Assembly (NCBI GenBank): GCA_003233305.1
Contig: QILI01000062.1
Location: 1 to 47,630 of the forward strand
Reading direction: 5' to 3'
Length of the DNA stretch: 47,630 nt
Source of the DNA: Mizugakiibacter sp.
Lineage (GTDB): Bacteria; Pseudomonadota; Gammaproteobacteria; Xanthomonadales; Rhodanobacteraceae
Position 1 is the stretch's first letter. Every line of letters begins with the position of its first letter. The position numbers and the translations under genes are program-made. The notes under the pieces are model-generated. The model made no database searches. It saw only the letters and a program-made list of their open reading frames with translations, and was not told the origin of the DNA. Shown here piece by piece: positions 36,210 through 45,653 of the stretch.

Positions 36210-37142
36210 ATGCCCAGATCGACCCGTATCGATACAGCACCTCCCATAGCCTCCGCAGATCAGACCGCCATCGATATTTTTATCGAACGGCTGTGGGCCG
36301 AGGATGGGCTGGCTCGTCACACCTTGGCTGCCTATCGTAGTGATTTGCAGGGCTTTTCCCGCTGGCTCGTACTACGCCACAGCAACCTACTCGAAGCTGA
36401 ACGCGAAGCCATTTTCGACTACCTCGCCGAACGGCTAGGGCAGGGACACAAGGCGCGCAGCAACGCCCGGCTCTTATCCAGCCTGAGACGGTTCTACAGG
36501 TCCAGGGCGCCTCACGTAGGAGGCATTGATCCAACAGCCCTGATTTCTGCACCAAAACTATCTCGGGGCTTACCCAAGGCACTGTCTGAAGTGGAAATAG
36601 AAGCCCTACTCATTGCTCCCGATCCGAACACGACGCTGGGTCTGCGTGACCGTACCTTGCTGGAACTTATGTATGCCTGCGGCTTGCGGGTAAGCGAATT
36701 GGTGCGACTTCCTTATGCTGCAGTCAACCTGCGCCAAGGCATCATCCGGGCCTATGGCAAAGGGGGTAAGGAGCGTTTAGTCCCCATCGGTGAAATCGCC
36801 CAGGATTGGCTCGAGCGCTACCTCCACGAAGCCCGCCCGGTGCTGGCCCGAGGTACCGCACCCGAAGCACTGTTGCTTACCCGGCTGGGGCGGGGAATGT
36901 CTCGGCAAATGGCCTGGTACCTGATCAAACGGCATGCCCAGACCGCCGGCATCCCCAGCTCACGAATCTCCCCGCACGTACTGCGGCATTCTTTTGCTAC
37001 TCACCTACTCAATCACGGTGCCGATCTTCGCACCTTGCAGATGCTGCTGGGCCACGCCAGCCTCAGTACTACGCAGATTTACACCATGGTGGCACGTGAA
37101 ACCCTCAAGCGCCTGCATGCTCGTCATCATCCCCGGGGCTAA
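36210..37142 (+). CDS. xerD: Site-specific tyrosine recombinase XerD
   Basis: A 310-residue recombinase that with XerC resolves chromosome dimers at dif. The SAM-like N-terminal domain (IDIFIERLWAEDGLARHTLAAYRSDL) is followed by the catalytic domain with all key residues: Arg160 in CGLRVSELV, Lys184 in GKGGKER, His256 and Arg259 in PHVLRHSFATHLL, His282 and nucleophile Tyr291 in LLGHASLSTTQIYT. Length is slightly over E. coli XerD (298). It is not next to integrase targets or phage genes, and the sequence fits housekeeping Xer rather than an integron. A hairpin follows the stop. Confidence 0.93.
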   Translation: MPRSTRIDTAPPIASADQTAIDIFIERLWAEDGLARHTLAAYRSDLQGFSRWLVLRHSNLLEAEREAIFDYLAERLGQGHKARSNARLLSSLRRFYRSRAPHVGGIDPTALISAPKLSRGLPKALSEVEIEALLIAPDPNTTLGLRDRTLLELMYACGLRVSELVRLPYAAVNLRQGIIRAYGKGGKERLVPIGEIAQDWLERYLHEARPVLARGTAPEALLLTRLGRGMSRQMAWYLIKRHAQTAGIPSSRISPHVLRHSFATHLLNHGADLRTLQMLLGHASLSTTQIYTMVARETLKRLHARHHPRG

Positions 37143-37309: not shown

Positions 37310-40300
37310 ATGATCGTTCTCGACGGACAGAACGCCTTGTCGCCGTTCCGGCTCGAACACCTGAATAAGCATCTCAAAGCGATCCACCCGGGGGTCCGGG
37401 TCAAGTCGGCATGGTTTGTTTATTTTATTGATTGTGTCGCCAAACTTGACGAGGCTGAACACATTCGCTTGCAGAATGTGCTGCAAGCCCATGCTACCGC
37501 TATCAAGAATGCAGCCATACTATGGGTTACACCCCGGCTGGGTACGATTTCTCCCTGGTCCACCAAGGCCAGCAACATCCTTCACCGTACCGGCTTTGCA
37601 GTACACCGAGTCGAGCGAGGTATCGCTCTGTTGATGGAGGCCCTGCCACCGGCTGAACACGAGGATTATGCTCGGATCCTGGCAATTCTCCATGATCGCA
37701 TGACCGAGACGGTACTGGAACGTCTCGAAGATGCCGGGCAGCTTTTCTTGCACGGCCAACCTGGTGCATTAGTCACTATTGTCCTCGGCAAACAACCCGG
37801 GCTGGTTTTGCAAGCGGCTAACCAACGACTTGGACTGGCCTTGGCCGAAGACGAAATCACTTATCTCGCCGAACGCTATACCGAACTCGGCCGTGATCCC
37901 AGTGACGTGGAATTGATGATGTTTGCCCAGACCAACTCTGAACACTGTCGGCATAAAGTGTTCAATGCCAGCTGGACCATCGACAAGGCAGACCGCTCTA
38001 AAACCTTATTCGACATGATCCGTGCCACCCACGAGGCCCATCCTGACCACACTCTTTCGGCCTACTCCGACAATGCTGCAGTAATCAGCGGCTCGCGTGG
38101 ACAACGCCTTCGCGTCGACCCTGAACAGGGCGTCTGGACCAGCAAACTTGGTGAAATCCCTTACGCAATCAAGGTTGAAACCCACAACCATCCCACTGCC
38201 ATCGCCCCCTGGGCGGGTGCCGCAACCGGAGCGGGTGGGGAAATTCGCGACGAGGGTGCCGTAGGCCGTGGCGGAAAACCCAAGGCCGGGGTAATAGGCT
38301 TTACCGTATCGCATCTGCGTATTCCAGGCCTAGCCCGTCCTTGGGAAACTCCTCGCCCATTGTCGGCACGGTTTGCCAGTGCCTTCGAGATCATGCGCGA
38401 GGCCCCACTGGGTGCTGCCGCTTTCAACAACGAGTTCGGCCGTCCCTGCTTGGGCGGCTACTTCCGCAGCTTCGAGCAGGACACCAGCGAACTCGGTGTC
38501 CGGCATGGCTACGACAAGCCAATTATGATCGCCGGTGGAATTGCCAATCTACGTTCCGGGCATGTGCAAAAGCAACCACTGCAAGATGGCGACGCTATCG
38601 TCATACTGGGCGGCCCGGCCATGCTGATCGGTCTGGGTGGCGGGGCGGCTTCGTCGCAAGTGGCCGGGCGTAGTATTGAAGATCTCGACTTTGCCTCAGT
38701 ACAGCGCGACAACGCTGAAATGCAGCGGCGTTGCCAGGAAGTCATCGATACCTGCTGTGCACTGGATACAGCGACCCCGATTATCTCCATCCATGACGTC
38801 GGTGCCGGCGGCTTATCCAATGCCATCCCCGAGCTGCTGCATGATTCGCAGCTCGGTGGGCATATTGAACTGGCCAAGATACCTTGTGACGACCCCTCGC
38901 TATCACCGCTGCAACTGTGGTGCAATGAGGCCCAGGAACGATATATTCTCGGTATCCGCCCACCGGATCTGCAACGCCTTAAGACCATCTGTGACCGCGA
39001 ACGCTGTCCCTATGCCGTGGTCGGCCACGCTACTGCCGAGCAACATCTGCATGTGTCCGACCAGCGCGGTGCAAAATCTTCCACTGTCATTGATCTGCCC
39101 ATGAACATGCTGTTCGGTAGCCCACCCCAAATGCAGCGCCGCACAACCCGGATCAAACCTCGTGTGGATCTGGTACCGGATCTCTCCGGCATTACCCTGG
39201 ACGAAGCCATTACCCGGGTACTTCAGCTCCCCTGCGTGGGCTCAAAATCATTCCTTATCACCATTGGCGACCGTAGTGTCGGGGGTCTTTGCGCGCGTGA
39301 TCCCATGGTCGGCCCGTGGCAAGTACCGGTGGCCGATTGCGCAGTGACCCTACTTGACTTCGAAGGCTATGCTGGCGAAGCCATGGCCATGGGTGAGCGT
39401 AGCCCATTGGCCCTGCTGGGCAGTGCCGAAGCAACGCGCATGGCAATTGGTGAGGCCATTACTAACCTGGCCGCCGCACCGGTTCACGAACTGGGTGAAG
39501 TACGCCTTTCTGCTAACTGGATGGCTGCCGTCGACCATGCTCGTGAGGATACCGCCCTGTACGATGCGGTACAGGCCGCCAGCGAGCTATGCCAAGCGCT
39601 CGGCCTTTCCATCCCGGTGGGTAAAGATTCACTGTCCATGCAAACTCGCTGGGACGATGCTGAGCAAGGTCCTCAGCAGACTGTAGCCCCGGTATCCCTA
39701 GTGGTTACGGCTTTCTCCCGGGTCACCGATGTACGCCGGGCCCTGACCCCGCAACTGCATCTCGATCAGGGTGCCACAGCCCTGTGGCTACTTGATCTTG
39801 GCGGCGGCCACGATCGCTTGGGGGCTTCCGCCCTGATGCAAGTATTCAACCGTGGTGGTGGGGTACCACCTGATCTCGATGATCCCCATCGACTGCAGGC
39901 TTTTTTCACCTTCATACAGCAAGCTACCAGCCAGGGCTTACTGCTCGCCTACCACGACCGTAGCGATGGAGGCCTGATTGTCAGCCTCCTGGAAATGGCC
40001 TTCGCCGGCCATTGTGGTTTGCAGATCCAACTCGATGGCTGGGGGGAAACCACTCTGCGCACCCTGTTTACCGAGGAACTTGGGGCTGTGTTCCAAGTCA
40101 GTGAGAATAACAGTGAGCGCTTACAGGTTTTGGCTCAAGCCCACGGTCTCACCCATTATTTGCACCGTATCGGCCAACCCAGGGAAAAGCTTGGTATCAA
40201 GCTGTTCCTCGGTGACGAAGTTGTGGCTCGCTGGAACTGGACAGATCATTTTAATTCCTGGCATGAAACCAGTGCAGCCATGCAGCGACTCCGCGACCAT

Positions 40301-41179
40301 CCCGACTACGCCGAGCAGGAACGGGTCTGGCGTGTCGACGATGATGACCCCGGCATGCGACCGGCCTCAAGTTTCGTTCTTTCCGAGAATGTGGCCGCGC
40401 CCCTGATTGCCAGCGGAGTACGTCCACGAATCGCCATCCTTCGTGAACAGGGTGTCAACGGTGAGGTAGAAATGGCCGCTGCATTCATCCGTGCCGGCTT
40501 CGAAGCTGTCGATGTACACATGAGCGATCTGCTCTCTGGCCGTCATCACCTGAAAAATTTCCATGGCCTTGCTGTTTGCGGCGGTTTTTCCTACGGTGAT
40601 GTCCTCGGTGCCGGCCGCGGCTGGGCTGCCTCGATCCTCTACAACGAGTCCTTGCGACAACAGTTCCAAGCCTTCTTCGCCGATGAAACCACGTTCTCTC
40701 TGGGCGTTTGCAACGGTTGCCAGATGCTCTCGGAATTACGTGAAATTATTCCCGATACCGATGCCTGGCCACATTTTCTGCGTAATAAATCCGAACAGTT
40801 TGAAGCCCGGCTGGTCACCATAGAAGTGCGTGAATCACCCTCCATTTTCCTCACTGGTATGACCGGCTCGCGGCTTCCTGTAGTCGTCGCCCACGGAGAA
40901 GGTTGTGCAACATGGCAAGAAGGGCTCGAACCCACGCAATCATCCTGCCTGAACTATGTCGACCATCACGGTAAAGCCACCGAGGCTTATCCACTCAATC
41001 CTAATGGCTCCCCCGGTGGACACACCGGATTTCACGCTGCCGGGGGCCGGGTATTGATTCTCATGCCGCACCCCGAACGCGTCTTCCGTAGTGTGCAACT
41101 GAGTTGGTACCCCTCCACCTGGGGCGAGGATTCACCCTGGATGCGTCTGTTTCGCAATGCCCGGGTTTGGCTGGGATAG
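37310..41179 (+). CDS. purL: Phosphoribosylformylglycinamidine synthase
   Basis: A 1289-residue long-type PurL for the fourth step of purine synthesis. From the N-terminus: a PurS-like domain, the FGAM synthetase domains with [27 protein letters not shown] (about residues 290-315), and a C-terminal glutaminase with [16 protein letters not shown], nucleophile Cys in LGVCNGCQ and the His/Glu pair in MPHPERVFR. Length equals that of E. coli PurL (1295) within a few residues. The ATG at 37310 has no good ribosome site (GCTGCGTTCCCC precedes it). It is monocistronic and followed by a strong hairpin. Confidence 0.97.
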
Positions 41180-41375: not shown

Positions 41376-42473
41376 TCAAGGCTGGGCCGTCACCTTCGTG
41401 CTTAGGTGCTGGCCATCGATGGTGGTTAGGCGCAAGGTATAGCTGCTACCGGACAAGGCTTGCATCGCATTTCCCGGTAACTCAATGACGGCCTTGGCAC
41501 CGACCACTCCGCCAATACCGTAGGCTGTTGGCTTAAACTTCGAGGACCAGGCTTGGGTAAACCGATTGACGATGCTGGCTTTGGGTAGTGCGGTCAGCTG
41601 CTTACCGGTCCACCGCTCCACGGCGTTACCACTGGAATCGAGCAACTCTGCACCAATTAAGTAGAGCTTACCGGTGTCCGGGCCGGCATCAACATAAGCA
41701 TGAAAGCTCACTGTCCCATCGGTCTTGACTTGTGCCTGATTCAGACTCAGGGAGTAATGATGAAAATTTACCCGTGCGTGCAATGGGCTGTATACCGCGC
41801 CATGTAGAAACTGGTAGGAGGTGACGGTAAAAATAATCGCGATGATACCCAGCCAGATGCTCCACTTACGCATGGTCTGGTAAGGTAAATGTCCTGAAAA
41901 CAACACCCGGAACCAGCTGCGCTCACCGAGATTCGGATTACGCCGGGCCAGCCAGTGATCCACCGACCAGGATCCACCGCCGGTAAGCATCAGCAGCGTA
42001 CCCATGGCAAAACCCGCCGCCGCCATAGTCCACTCGTCAACACAAGTCGAACCCATCCAGCCAAAGATCATCATCAACGATACATTTACCCCGGCACTTG
42101 CGAAGGCCAGCAAGCGGGTGGCGAAACCGATAATCAGGCCCACTCCGACGACTAACTCGACCAGAGTCCAGAACCACACCATGGTATGCAGCAAGCTACC
42201 ATGCTCCATAATCCATTGGATCATCCCGGGAAACATCGACCCAGGCATGGCATGCGCCAGCTTGTTGGCCACGTAGCCGCTAACGTCCGGGTTCATCTTC
42301 ACCGCTGACAGGTGGCCTTGAACCATATGGAAATCGTAAAACAGTCGGCGTGAAGCGCCGCCCCAATACACCCAGCCCTGAACCAGGCGTACGCCCAGAG
42401 CCATCAGCCCCGCGAATGCGAAAATTCGTGCCGGGGTCCATTCGCCCTGTTGAGTCGTGTTGGTCGTTTGCAT
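41376..42473 (-). CDS. doxDA: Thiosulfate:quinone oxidoreductase, DoxD-DoxA fusion
   Basis: A 365-residue inner-membrane enzyme oxidising thiosulfate to tetrathionate and passing electrons to the quinone pool. Residues 1-175 form the DoxD domain, a DoxX-like four-helix bundle (ARIFAFAGLMALGVRLVQG, MVWFWTLVELVVGVGLIIGF, ASAGVNVSLMMIFGWMGS, MAAAGFAMGTLLMLTGGG). A further helix near 205-222 leads to the DoxA domain (225-365) in the periplasm. Such fusions are known in Acidithiobacillus, whereas archaeal DoxD and DoxA are separate. ATG 42473 is chosen; the ORF runs 21 codons further. It is last in the dsrE-SBP-doxDA cassette, after a 250-base gap. Confidence 0.9.
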   Translation of the reverse strand: MQTTNTTQQGEWTPARIFAFAGLMALGVRLVQGWVYWGGASRRLFYDFHMVQGHLSAVKMNPDVSGYVANKLAHAMPGSMFPGMIQWIMEHGSLLHTMVWFWTLVELVVGVGLIIGFATRLLAFASAGVNVSLMMIFGWMGSTCVDEWTMAAAGFAMGTLLMLTGGGSWSVDHWLARRNPNLGERSWFRVLFSGHLPYQTMRKWSIWLGIIAIIFTVTSYQFLHGAVYSPLHARVNFHHYSLSLNQAQVKTDGTVSFHAYVDAGPDTGKLYLIGAELLDSSGNAVERWTGKQLTALPKASIVNRFTQAWSSKFKPTAYGIGGVVGAKAVIELPGNAMQALSGSSYTLRLTTIDGQHLSTKVTAQP

Positions 42474-42682
42474 AGCCGTTTTCCTCTTGTCCGTACCTGC
42501 TGGACGAACGATCGAATTAATGATTTTTCCAAGCACACCAAGATCGTGCGGTTCCTGTCACTTTTCAGATCATTACCGAAGTTGCTCACCCGATCATGGG
42601 GCTGAACTTGCTGGGTTGGGTCGATGTTACGGCCGTACTACCCCAGCAACCTCTGCAGTGAGGGCAGGTCTGCCGCCGAGCA

Positions 42683-42705
42683 GATCGGACCTCTGGGGCC
42701 CGATC
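42683..42705 (-). terminator. Hairpin after the solute-binding protein gene
   Basis: GATCGGACC (42683-42691) and GGCCCGATC (42697-42705) form a nine-base stem with one A-C mismatch, 18 bases past the stop. No T-run follows on the minus strand. It could partly terminate or stabilise the upstream message and so weaken doxDA expression. Confidence 0.35.
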
Positions 42706-42723
42706 CACCCAATCGCCATGGCT

Positions 42724-43725
42724 TCAGTGTTTGCCCATGTAGGGTTTAAAACCGTAGTGCTCAAACACTTTCAAAGCTGCCGCCGAGCGTAGAAACTTGA
42801 TCCAGGCCCTGGCCCAACGCGGATGTGGCGCTCCCCTGACCATCGCAATGGCATACACCGCCGTCGTATTGTTACGCGGAGCGATATCCACATAGCTGAT
42901 CGGATGACCGATCTCCTCCTGGAACAGGGCCTCCGACTTCCAGGTAATCCCCGCATCCGCCAAACCCTGCATCAGAAACAGAGGTGTCTGTCGGTGATGA
43001 ATATGGGTCAGAACAGTCTGCCCATTCTGCACCTTGGTAACGTAGACATTTTGCTCCAAGGCCTTGCCACCAGCCTTACGCAGCGTGCTCATAGCCCTGG
43101 CAGCAATACCTTCCCATTTTGGGTTAGGCATGACAACACGGATGCCGGGCTTGCCGAGATCCGCTACCGACTTGATCCCTGCTGGATTGCCTTTCGGCAC
43201 CATAATGGTCAAGTCATTGGTCACATACGGCACAACCGGAGCCACCAGTAGTCCCTTTTTGAGAACCTTACGCACCCGACCCAACCCTGCTGCATATACA
43301 TCTGGAGCGATGGTCCAGGTCATATTGCCAACAGTGATCGTGTTACCGGCCTGCATCTGCTTGAGCAGGAGACCCGGTGGCAGGGTCTCAGAATAAATCC
43401 GGCCACGGAGCTGCGGATATTTGGCCTCAAAGGCCTTGACCAGTGGTGCCATGGCAAAGTAATAGTTGCCACCGACAAAGATTACCAGCTTGGGATTATC
43501 AAGATTACCGTGAAAATCAGGCAGGTCATCCACTTCCGGTACGGTAAAATTCAGACCCTTGTACAGTGCTGGATTGTTGGCCCCATGCTGCCAGGGCGGA
43601 AACAATGTTTCCTGGTATTTTGGTGGCGTCACCGGCTTGCCGATATCGCCGGCCTGAACACTGACAGCCATGCCTGCCAAGGCCAACAGAAGTGTTCCCA
43701 GCCCAATTTGTAAGTTCCGTTTCAT
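42724..43725 (-). CDS. Periplasmic solute-binding protein (PBP II superfamily), orphan
   Basis: A 333-residue secreted protein. Signal peptide MKRNLQIGLGTLLLALAGMAVSVQA is followed by a two-lobed PBP type II fold: VIFVGGNYYFAMAPLVKAFEAKYPQLRGRIYSETLPPG, then NDLTIMVPKGNPAGIKSVADLGKPGIRVVMPNPKWEGI, a ModA/sulfate-binding-like pattern. The ligand is likely an anion; a sulfur oxyanion would fit the neighbouring doxDA, but this is inference. No permease or ATPase gene adjoins. ATG 43725 has AAGGTG upstream; an upstream ATG and GTG are alternatives. The gene follows the DsrE-like gene by 68 bases. Confidence 0.8.
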   Translation of the reverse strand: MKRNLQIGLGTLLLALAGMAVSVQAGDIGKPVTPPKYQETLFPPWQHGANNPALYKGLNFTVPEVDDLPDFHGNLDNPKLVIFVGGNYYFAMAPLVKAFEAKYPQLRGRIYSETLPPGLLLKQMQAGNTITVGNMTWTIAPDVYAAGLGRVRKVLKKGLLVAPVVPYVTNDLTIMVPKGNPAGIKSVADLGKPGIRVVMPNPKWEGIAARAMSTLRKAGGKALEQNVYVTKVQNGQTVLTHIHHRQTPLFLMQGLADAGITWKSEALFQEEIGHPISYVDIAPRNNTTAVYAIAMVRGAPHPRWARAWIKFLRSAAALKVFEHYGFKPYMGKH

Positions 43726-43793
43726 ACCCATCACCTTATCGTTATGCAGAGAAGTACCGGCCGCTCAGAGAATCCTGCCGACCGGTGGCCTAT

Positions 43794-44345
43794 TTACATG
43801 CGCATCAGTGCATAACCCTTATTTTGCAGAATAACCAGAGTCGAAATTGCTGAGAGCGCGATCTTGAACTTCGGGTTTACTTCCGCTGGTGTGTAACCGT
43901 TATCAGCCAATGCGTTACCGCAGACCGTCAGTTCAACCCCGGCCTTATACAGCGCGTTGATTACCTTGAGGTTGGGATTGGCATAACCGAACTTGGCCTT
44001 GAAAGCCTTCGCACTGAGTACCACCGAAGTAGCCGGGCCGTGTACGACAAGCACGAACTTCAGATTCTTCAGCGGAACCCCCATCACTGCAAACGCATTT
44101 ACAGTGCGCGCGGTGTGGTTGAGACTGCCATTGAGCTTGTCCATATGCTTGGACTTGGTTATATCAAACAAGGCTTTATAGGTGGTGTGTTGATTCGGGA
44201 CAAAAACCACATGCTTCCACACATGCACATGGCCAAAACCGGGAACCCCAGGGGTGCTCCAGAATCCAGCCGGTTGGGCAGCAAGAACCAGGGTTGGAAT
44301 CGAGAAAATCAGTGCAAAAACCAGTAGACGGAGTTTCTTGCTCAC
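43794..44345 (-). CDS. Secreted DsrE-family protein
   Basis: A 183-residue exported protein. Signal peptide MSKKLRLLVFALIFSIPTLVLAA (cleavage after about residue 23) precedes a DsrE/DsrF-like fold. The segment LKFVLVVHGPATSVVL, then AGVELTVCGNALADNGY with Cys142, is the position of the reactive sulfur-carrier Cys in DsrE proteins. Most characterised DsrE proteins are cytosolic, so a periplasmic form is distinctive. The start is GTG 44345, preceded by GAGGAG eight bases upstream. First gene of the sulfur cassette; upstream lies an AT-rich promoter region. Confidence 0.82.
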   Translation of the reverse strand: MSKKLRLLVFALIFSIPTLVLAAQPAGFWSTPGVPGFGHVHVWKHVVFVPNQHTTYKALFDITKSKHMDKLNGSLNHTARTVNAFAVMGVPLKNLKFVLVVHGPATSVVLSAKAFKAKFGYANPNLKVINALYKAGVELTVCGNALADNGYTPAEVNPKFKIALSAISTLVILQNKGYALMRM

Positions 44346-44903: not shown

Positions 44904-45653
44904 ATGAACAAACCTGCTACGACCCATTTCGGTTTCCGCGAAGTACCGGTTGCTGAGAAGCAATACCTGGTCGGACGCGTTTTTACTTCCGTTGCGCAGC
45001 GCTATGATCTGATGAACGACCTGATGTCGTTCGGGCTCCACCGGTTATGGAAGCGTTTTTTTGTCGCCACCTGTGGAGTGCGGGCCGGTGATCGGGTCCT
45101 CGACCTGGCGGGTGGAACCGGCGATATTGCCGCCCTGTTGTATCCACGGGTGGGGGCCAAGGGTCAGATCACGGTCGGTGACATCAACGCGGCGATGCTC
45201 GACGTAGGACGGTCCCGGCTTACTGACCGAGGCTTGGTTGGACGGCTTGACTGGACCCAGATGAATGCCGAATACCTGCCCTGTGCCAATGCCAGCTTCG
45301 ATGCCGTAACAATCGCCTTCGGCCTGCGGAATGTCACCGATAAAGATCGGGCTTTGCGGGAGATGTATCGGGTTTTGCGCCCAGGTGGCCGGGTACTGAT
45401 TCTGGAGTTTTCGCGATTGACCCAGGACTGGATGCAACCACTGTACGACTTGCATTCCTTTCAGGTATTGCCGCGCCTCGGTCGCCTGTTTGCCAACGAT
45501 GCAGAGAGCTATCGTTATCTTGCCGAGTCCATCCGCAAACACCCTGACCAGGCCACCCTGAAAGCCATGCTGCATGAAGCGGGCTTTGCCCAAGTCAGCG
45601 TACACAATCTCAGTGCCGGCCTCGTCGCCATCCATCGCGGCTATCGGCTTTGA
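44904..45653 (+). CDS. ubiE: Ubiquinone/menaquinone C-methyltransferase UbiE
   Basis: A 249-residue class I SAM-dependent methyltransferase that methylates demethylmenaquinone and the ubiquinone precursor. FGFREVPVAEKQYLVGRVFTSVAQRYDLMNDLMSFGLHRLWK is the UbiE N-terminal signature; DLAGGTGD (67-74) binds SAM; AFGLRNVTD and LRPGGRVLILEFS follow. Length matches E. coli UbiE (251). Quinones are the electron acceptor of DoxDA encoded nearby, though the genes are divergent and not an operon. A perfect hairpin follows the stop. Confidence 0.96.
   Translation: MNKPATTHFGFREVPVAEKQYLVGRVFTSVAQRYDLMNDLMSFGLHRLWKRFFVATCGVRAGDRVLDLAGGTGDIAALLYPRVGAKGQITVGDINAAMLDVGRSRLTDRGLVGRLDWTQMNAEYLPCANASFDAVTIAFGLRNVTDKDRALREMYRVLRPGGRVLILEFSRLTQDWMQPLYDLHSFQVLPRLGRLFANDAESYRYLAESIRKHPDQATLKAMLHEAGFAQVSVHNLSAGLVAIHRGYRL

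Follow-up and report, generated by a model that had tools for sequence, protein, structure and literature searches.

The window analyzed here is a stretch of 47,630 nucleotides from a Mizugakiibacter sp. genome (assembly GCA_003233305.1, contig QILI01000062.1). It contains a three-gene cassette for a predicted secreted DsrE-like protein, a predicted periplasmic solute-binding protein (SBP), and DoxDA, a fused thiosulfate:quinone oxidoreductase (TQO)-like protein (Table 1). The sequence-only reading had described these genes on one strand, with a signal-bearing DsrE-fold protein carrying Cys142 among their products, and all were recovered where it had placed them. The stop codon of the DsrE-like gene is 59 bp from the start of the SBP gene. 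DoxDA probably starts at the ATG at 42473 and not at the upstream GTG, as judged by inspection, and signal peptides were called by inspection and hydropathy only. The cassette is flanked by purL and ubiE, and no sulfur acceptor is found among these flanks. The source genome is 2.66 Mb in size and 99% complete.

Table 1. Coordinates of the cassette and flanking features in the window
Feature	Position	Strand	Description
DsrE-like gene	44345->43794 (43794..44345)	minus	183 aa; first cassette gene; predicted secreted; single Cys142
Cys142 codon	43920..43922	minus	C-x-[N/Q] motif; end of β-strand
SBP gene	43734->42724 (42724..43734)	minus	336 aa; predicted periplasmic solute-binding protein; sulfate/molybdate-like class
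DoxDA gene	42536->41376 (41376..42536)	minus	fused thiosulfate:quinone oxidoreductase-like protein; likely start 42473
purL	37310-41179	plus	flanks cassette
ubiE	44904-45653	plus	flanks cassette; divergent from DsrE-like gene

The DsrE-like protein scored 40 bits against Pfam DsrE (PF02635; cut-off, 22.7), which places it in this superfamily. It has a hydrophobic, signal-peptide-like N-terminal segment and a single cysteine, Cys142. In its predicted model, with a predicted local distance difference test (pLDDT) score of 85.9, Cys142 is the last residue of the strand formed by residues 138-142. The Protein Data Bank (PDB) matches of the model include DsrE/DsrF-like, YchN, DsrEFH, and TusBCD chains; 3mc3, 2qs7, 1jx7, and 2hy5 are among these matches. 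Cys142 is invariant in the aligned DsrE rows (25/25). All 48 distinct sequences matched in the family have C-x-[NQ], and each has one cysteine beyond residue 20 of its matched part. A PHROGs search with the protein gave no match. The only other PF02635 match in the source genome (G000:C59:4968-5465, in L208 and L209) has 165 amino acids; its gene is downstream of an AccC-like gene on the same strand, and the neighbors, named by inspection, look unrelated.

The SBP scored 174 bits against Pfam SBP_bac_11 (cut-off, 25), has a hydrophobic N-terminal segment, and contains no cysteine. Its nearest solved relatives are sulfate-binding proteins, and the fold class also includes molybdate-binding proteins. 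It fell below the curated cut-offs of the sulfate, thiosulfate, and molybdate models that it matched, the scores being 43.2 versus 155.5, 29.2 versus 308, and 40.2 versus 62.5 bits. In the SBP alignment, E208 and G209 are invariant, W207 occurs in 12 of the 13 rows, and W265, the tryptophan in the region of the pocket, is retained. DoxDA scored above the Pfam cut-offs for both DoxD (89.5 bits) and DoxA (60.9 bits) and below that of the NCBIfam equivalog for TQO DoxD (NF041179; 74.4 versus 300 bits); its TQO activity is putative and claimed by homology only.

Conservation of the cassette was analyzed in 61 genomes of the order, the source genome and 60 relatives. A DsrE gene directly followed by the SBP gene was found in 17 genomes, namely 11 of 13 in the genus, 6 of 24 in other genera of the family, and none of 24 in the rest of the order. 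DoxDA is present in 13 genomes, which are the 11 pair carriers of the genus and two genomes without the pair; none of the six pair carriers of other genera has it. All six carry TsdA within ~1.2 kb after the SBP, and this cassette cytochrome is a clear relative of TsdA (PDB 5lo9, E = 5e-86; 4wqc, E = 3e-53). Within the genus, TsdA is located between the SBP and DoxDA in eight of the 11 pair carriers and on another contig in G006; the source genome and G004 gave no TsdA match at E <= 1e-20. TsdA is thus present in 15 of the 17 genomes with the DsrE-SBP pair versus 2 of the 44 without it (Fisher 2e-10, not corrected for kinship). One of the latter two, G017, has a TsdB/TsdA-like gene pair directly followed by a gene for a more distant secreted DsrE protein (G017:C13:70420-72078, L026), which no SBP gene adjoins. 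Some same-genus relatives also have a second SBP gene and a diheme cytochrome gene between the SBP and DoxDA. A permease and an ATPase had been considered for this position, and the idea was dropped when the genes scanned with Pfam proved to encode a second SBP and cytochromes. An apparent SBP-cytochrome c fusion, a frame of 569 amino acids in G024 (L072:6080-7789), was also rejected as the product of a frameshift at the SBP C terminus; a three-frame reading located the usual SBP C terminus in a different frame and showed that the cytochrome has a signal-like start of its own.

For a wider survey, contigs of named genomes were scanned with an SBP profile, and the best 80 of 489 tblastn-similar stretches (E <= 1e-3) were kept. 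Some of the 489 stretches may be ordinary SBPs; the 80 kept loci are 60-78% identical, and more distant SBPs lie outside the survey. Genes in these loci were identified by codon-trained calling and profile searches, and the N termini of the called proteins are uncertain. The gene just upstream of the SBP in the best 80 of 489 encodes thiosulfate dehydrogenase (TSD) in 48 loci and a secreted DsrE protein of the window type in 26, never both; it is neither of them in five loci, and one locus ends at a contig edge. TSD, our family N1, was assigned with our own profile, and one member was checked on NCBIfam. Because several of the 80 loci are near-identical, the SBPs were also clustered at 90% and 80% identity. 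The 54 clusters at 90% comprise 30 with TSD, 18 with DsrE, and six with none, no cluster being mixed, and the 28 clusters at 80% comprise 17, 10, and one, respectively. In L107, a distant DsrE match lies far from the SBP.

Downstream of or near the SBP, DoxDA alone was found in 39 loci, a TsdA-like cytochrome alone in 16, both in five, and neither in 15, and five loci reach a contig edge. As L137 carries a DoxDA that the counting rule missed, "neither" becomes 14. In total, DoxDA is downstream in 44 loci and TsdA nearby in 21. The DsrE, SBP, DoxDA order occurs in 24 of the 80 loci (25 with L137), and TsdA is located between SBP and DoxDA in five of these. A TsdB-like diheme cytochrome accompanies the TsdA-like cytochromes in the cassettes of several relatives. 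Carriers of the TSD version include Acidocella, where the order is TSD-SBP-DoxDA, and Methylorubrum thiocyanatum, where it is TSD-SBP-TsdBA. The record titles among the 80 loci include Rhodanobacter, Thiomonas, Sulfuriferula, Acidocella, Acetobacter, Methylobacterium, and Bradyrhizobium, and there are also metagenome-assembled genomes (MAGs) labeled with other phyla, which are possibly misbinned. Given this recurrence in relatives and in the best 80 loci, the order of the cassette genes is beyond chance. The co-conservation on which the sequence-only reading depended is therefore real, and the coupling of SBP with DoxDA is supported by comparative genomics. Its further claim, that the arrangement would be uncommon, fails in view of the 489 SBP-similar stretches and of the order already in print: a description from 2008 gives the order twin-arginine translocation (Tat) protein, SBP, doxDA, with a similar organization in Gluconobacter oxydans (PMC2621215), and the cluster is drawn as tsd-sbp-doxDA in a 2019 review (PMC6335251). 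Elsewhere in the window, a tyrosine recombinase of the phage-integrase family is encoded at 36210-37142, adjoining purL.

Judging from its fold class and its best solved relatives, which bind sulfate or molybdate, the SBP could be taken for a component of a sulfate, molybdate, or thiosulfate ATP-binding cassette (ABC) importer encoded elsewhere, in an incidental neighborhood. However, the cassette includes no cognate permease or ATPase, and the SBP could not be classed as an importer component. In the 99% complete source genome, the ABC permease family PF00528 has four matches. Their best-scoring assignments are OppB, OppC, PstA, and PstC, and no sulfate or molybdate permease is among these four. 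The scores against the sulfate and molybdate SBP models were all under the cut-off. A strict ABC ATPase motif was found in the flanks of only 2 of the 80 loci, at distances of 5.8 and 6.7 kb; some ATPases may escape this motif, and no search for permeases was made in the flanks. A role in an ordinary importer is very unlikely on these grounds. The SBP here is probably not an importer part and stands beside extracytoplasmic sulfur-oxidizing enzymes, as had been suggested from the sequence.

The TSD family that occupies the upstream position has a twin-arginine-like N terminus, and one of its proteins scored 410.6 bits against NF052225, "thiosulfate dehydrogenase" (cut-off, 300). A genome belonging to the genus of Acidithiobacillus ferrivorans carries the TSD-SBP-DoxDA cluster twice, in inverted arrangement, with copy-to-copy identities of 76, 75, and 71%. 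The published identities for the TSD, SBP, and DoxDA copies are 76, 74, and 71%, as given in the excerpted review (PMC6335251). Because the double inverted cluster and the copy identities agree with the published figures, N1 corresponds to AFE_0042/AFE_0050. Compared with the two A. ferrooxidans cluster copies, the window shows identities of 65 and 63% for the SBP and of 39 and 40% for DoxDA. The source genome gave no TSD match at E <= 1e-3, and TSD was found in 1 of the 61 genomes, G009. This genome has a DsrE-SBP cassette, and its TSD is on another contig. In L153 (L153:2428-5950), TSD and SBP are followed by a protein with a weak match to TsuA (32.5 bits; cut-off, 400). Two small exported proteins, also downstream of the TSD-SBP pair of L153, fall in the same cluster as a DsrE-like protein of A. 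ferrivorans.

TSD appears to resemble DsrE proteins in more than its position. In profile-profile comparison, its C-terminal part aligns with the DsrE family with probabilities of 63% and 57% (single-pair E ~1e-4). In the TSD model (pLDDT, 76.9), strands and helices follow one another as they do in the DsrE-like model, and the top four PDB matches of the TSD model are DsrE-like chains (2pd2, 3pnx twice, and 8uja; E = 0.003-0.04). 3pnx is a DsrE sulfurtransferase, 8uja was engineered from a DsrE-like protein, and 2pd2 is a structure that we take to be of the DsrE type. Cys209 of TSD, invariant in 33 of 33 rows, ends the strand that corresponds to the one ended by Cys142 in the DsrE-like model, and C-[H/R]-[N/Q] occurs in 46 of 46 TSD sequences. 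A single cysteine after residue 40 is seen in 37 of these 46, so a lone cysteine is not general. The strand before that of the cysteine is immediately followed by a histidine (His102, His138), which does not vary in the 33 TSD rows and the 25 close DsrE rows. These comparisons point, moderately and not conclusively, to TSD being DsrE-like, with a predicted fold similar to that of the window protein. A sequence search of the PDB with one TSD retrieved nothing relevant. In the open-access literature, covered by titles and the openings of abstracts, no report was found of TSD as DsrE-like or of a secreted DsrE protein beside SBP and DoxDA.

Cytosolic DsrE proteins carry sulfur, and the DsrE fold and lone Cys142 of the window protein would also suit a sulfane-sulfur relay in the periplasm, in which the protein accepts or donates sulfur as a cysteine persulfide while SBP and DoxDA handle thiosulfate or tetrathionate. 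Against such a relay, the TSD family fills the same slot in 48 of the 80 loci, the flanking genes purL and ubiE provide no sulfur acceptor, and the only other DsrE match in the source genome is surrounded by unrelated-looking genes. We regard the relay as unlikely. The sequence-only reading had given the DsrE-like protein a role in accepting or delivering sulfur in the periplasm. Sulfane-sulfur transfer fits less well than thiosulfate oxidation. Oxidation via a Cys-S-thiosulfonate would fit better because the protein occupies the place of a TSD of similar predicted fold.

The electron outlet also varies in ancestry. Among the matches listed, the SBP most similar to that of the window is from a Rhodanobacter MAG (L082), whose DoxDA is 82% identical to the window DoxDA. 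In a tree of 46 DoxDA sequences, these two cluster with two DoxDA that are unlinked to an SBP (support, 1.0), and the same-genus DoxDA fall outside the group, with long-branch effects being possible in this tree. Compared with four genomes of its own genus, the window is 37-41% identical in DoxDA, 64-67% in SBP, and 52-54% in DsrE. As in the window, ubiE lies 0.2-1.2 kb from DsrE, in divergent orientation, in five of the 10 pair-carrying relatives of the genus; in the other five, ubiE is outside the available flanks, one of which ends at a contig edge. In the relatives with ubiE beside DsrE, the DsrE-SBP core thus seems to have stayed at one site while the downstream genes changed, and the electron outlet looks to have been exchanged in place. 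The differing ancestry of DoxDA and the patchy presence of the DsrE-SBP pair, in 17 of 61 genomes, would also be expected if the three genes merely traveled together, through horizontal transfer or because they share regulation, and did not cooperate physically. We consider this very unlikely, since DsrE or TSD holds the upstream slot in 74 of the 80 loci and ubiE remains beside the pair in five same-genus relatives while the downstream genes differ.

We propose that the cassette is a modular periplasmic thiosulfate-oxidizing module that feeds the quinone pool, a proposal to which we give about an even chance. The analysis itself shows the genes, their linkage across genomes, the alternation of DsrE and TSD in one position, the exchange of the electron outlet, and a fold resemblance of moderate strength. 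For the ligand, the cysteine chemistry, the direct contacts, the electron route, and the product, we infer the following. The SBP would capture thiosulfate (or a thiosulfonate or polythionate) and present it to the redox proteins, not to an importer; the gene company makes thiosulfate the candidate ligand. The secreted DsrE-like protein would be the counterpart of the Acidithiobacillus-type TSD. Its Cys142 would take up thiosulfate as Cys-S-thiosulfonate in an oxidative loading from which DoxDA would carry off the electrons, and another thiosulfate would then release tetrathionate from Cys142. DoxDA would hand two electrons to quinone, a task that TsdB/TsdA, which are diheme cytochromes, would take over or share in related genera. 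The Cys-S-thiosulfonate route is a natural one in light of published chemistry: DsrE3A of Metallosphaera cuprina forms this adduct with tetrathionate (PMC4175335), and TsdA acts through it (PMC4423706). The sequence-only reading also set DoxDA at the outer face of the membrane. Going by a basic loop before the last hydrophobic segment, the DoxA domain of the fused protein may face outward; the archaeal TQO is called cytoplasmically oriented in the accessible part of one report (PMC4175335).

The expression of Acidithiobacillus homologues mostly fits the proposed module. In a comparison of growth on sulfur and iron, the log2 values towards sulfur were -1.5 for AFE_0042, -2.2 for AFE_0043, -2.3 for AFE_0044, and -1.1 for AFE_0045 (PMC2754497, in excerpt), and AFE_0043-0045 and TetH were raised in pyrite biofilm cells (PMC6450195, in excerpt). 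AFE_0042-0044 are thus expressed more highly on sulfur than on iron, and AFE_0049, the second SBP copy, is not.

Several points weigh against the module. The DsrE-like protein gave no match to the TSD family model NF052225 at E <= 1, so position and fold are the basis for treating it as a TSD counterpart. Confidence in the TSD model is itself moderate, and this model had no Foldseek match at E <= 0.001. The histidine conserved in the close alignments is replaced by Ser, Tyr, or Thr in 5 of 12 rows of a wider DsrE alignment, and a shared catalytic histidine is therefore not general. In the SBP, W-E-G stands where sulfate-binding proteins have SSGG, TSGG, or SSGS, a segment that presumably has a role in sulfate binding, and thiosulfate binding is for this reason unproven. 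In A. ferrivorans (L092:6588-7690), SBP and DoxDA are accompanied by a sub-threshold DsrE-like protein (Pfam, 14.2 bits) two genes upstream, and TSD is on another contig. No match at E <= 1e-10 to TetH, the tetrathionate hydrolase taken as the marker of the S4-intermediate pathway, was found in the source genome (the matches in G011 and G012 are 59-60% identical), and tetrathionate would thus exit the cell or be used otherwise. As far as the accessible text goes, M. cuprina DsrE3A does not react with thiosulfate (PMC4175335); a protein reacting with tetrathionate and not thiosulfate may have a reverse or storage role. The function of bacterial DoxDA is said in the review excerpt to need confirmation (PMC6335251), and AFE_0049 was not raised on sulfur (+0.3; PMC2754497). 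As a side observation, a DUF302-like protein is encoded upstream of the A. ferrivorans SBP-DoxDA genes, and a DUF302 protein also adjoins DoxDA in L079 (L079:6027-6614).

The SBP is also found in other company. In L161 (L161:1440-2606), from a MAG labeled Eremiobacterota, the same SBP type is followed by a SorA-like sulfite dehydrogenase (NF052245, 301 bits; cut-off, 600), and in L144 a gene of the same cluster follows the SBP. The order in L161 implies that other sulfur oxyanions are possible as ligands. Together with the reported reaction of M. cuprina DsrE3A with tetrathionate (PMC4175335), these loci would suit a function in sensing or protection, in which the SBP and the DsrE-like protein bind and neutralize or sense periplasmic sulfur oxyanions such as tetrathionate or sulfite and DoxDA or the cytochromes merely recycle them. 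But TSD, DoxDA, and TsdA, known or proposed formers of tetrathionate, recur beside the SBP, and the excerpted expression data show AFE_0042-0044 to be higher with sulfur as the energy source (PMC2754497). Sensing or protection is accordingly quite unlikely.

Beyond the thiosulfate-oxidizing module itself, we suggest, tentatively and allowing that it may well be wrong, that A. ferrooxidans TSD and the DsrE protein of the window belong to a family of heme-free, DsrE-fold periplasmic thiosulfate dehydrogenases or carriers, with a cysteine as the carrier, a dedicated SBP that feeds a redox enzyme, and a swappable outlet, which would lead through DoxDA to quinone or through TsdBA to cytochrome c. 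Parts of this common arrangement have already been published. Three points were not found in the open-access literature covered as above: that a secreted DsrE protein can replace TSD, that TSD probably has a DsrE fold, and that the DoxDA and TsdBA outlets have a single SBP in common. Should TSD and the secreted DsrE protein prove to be cysteine carriers of one kind, served by the SBP, the poorly understood TSD would gain an electron outlet and a mechanism open to testing. A group resembling sulfate- or molybdate-binding proteins would then have another function, and thiosulfate oxidation would become predictable for records with the names Acetobacter, Acidocella, Methylobacterium, and Rhodanobacter.

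The cassette can be compared with four known systems. With Sbp/SubI and ModA, the SBP of the window has in common the fold class and the pocket-region tryptophan (W265); it differs from them in having W-E-G for the SSGG-like segment and no fitting permease. M. cuprina DsrE3A is likewise a DsrE protein, one that forms Cys-S-thiosulfonate (PMC4175335, in excerpt), but it is archaeal and clustered with TusA and Hdr-like genes, whereas the window DsrE is predicted to be exported and is encoded beside an SBP. As to the TsdBA thiosulfate dehydrogenase (PDB 5lo9 and 4wqc), TsdA-like cytochromes are located in the cassettes of relatives, while the outlet in the source genome, which lacks a TsdA match at E <= 1e-20, is DoxDA. 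The closest counterparts in gene order and orientation are the A. ferrooxidans clusters AFE_0042-0044 and AFE_0048-0050, which the window cassette reproduces in both respects. It differs from them in its flanks, with purL and ubiE and no rhodanese, in a DoxDA from another lineage, and in a shorter DsrE-family protein without the twin-arginine motif in the place of TSD. In terms of the tsd-sbp-doxDA layout, SBP and DoxDA are present in the window, and upstream of them stands a DsrE protein whose predicted fold is similar to that of TSD.

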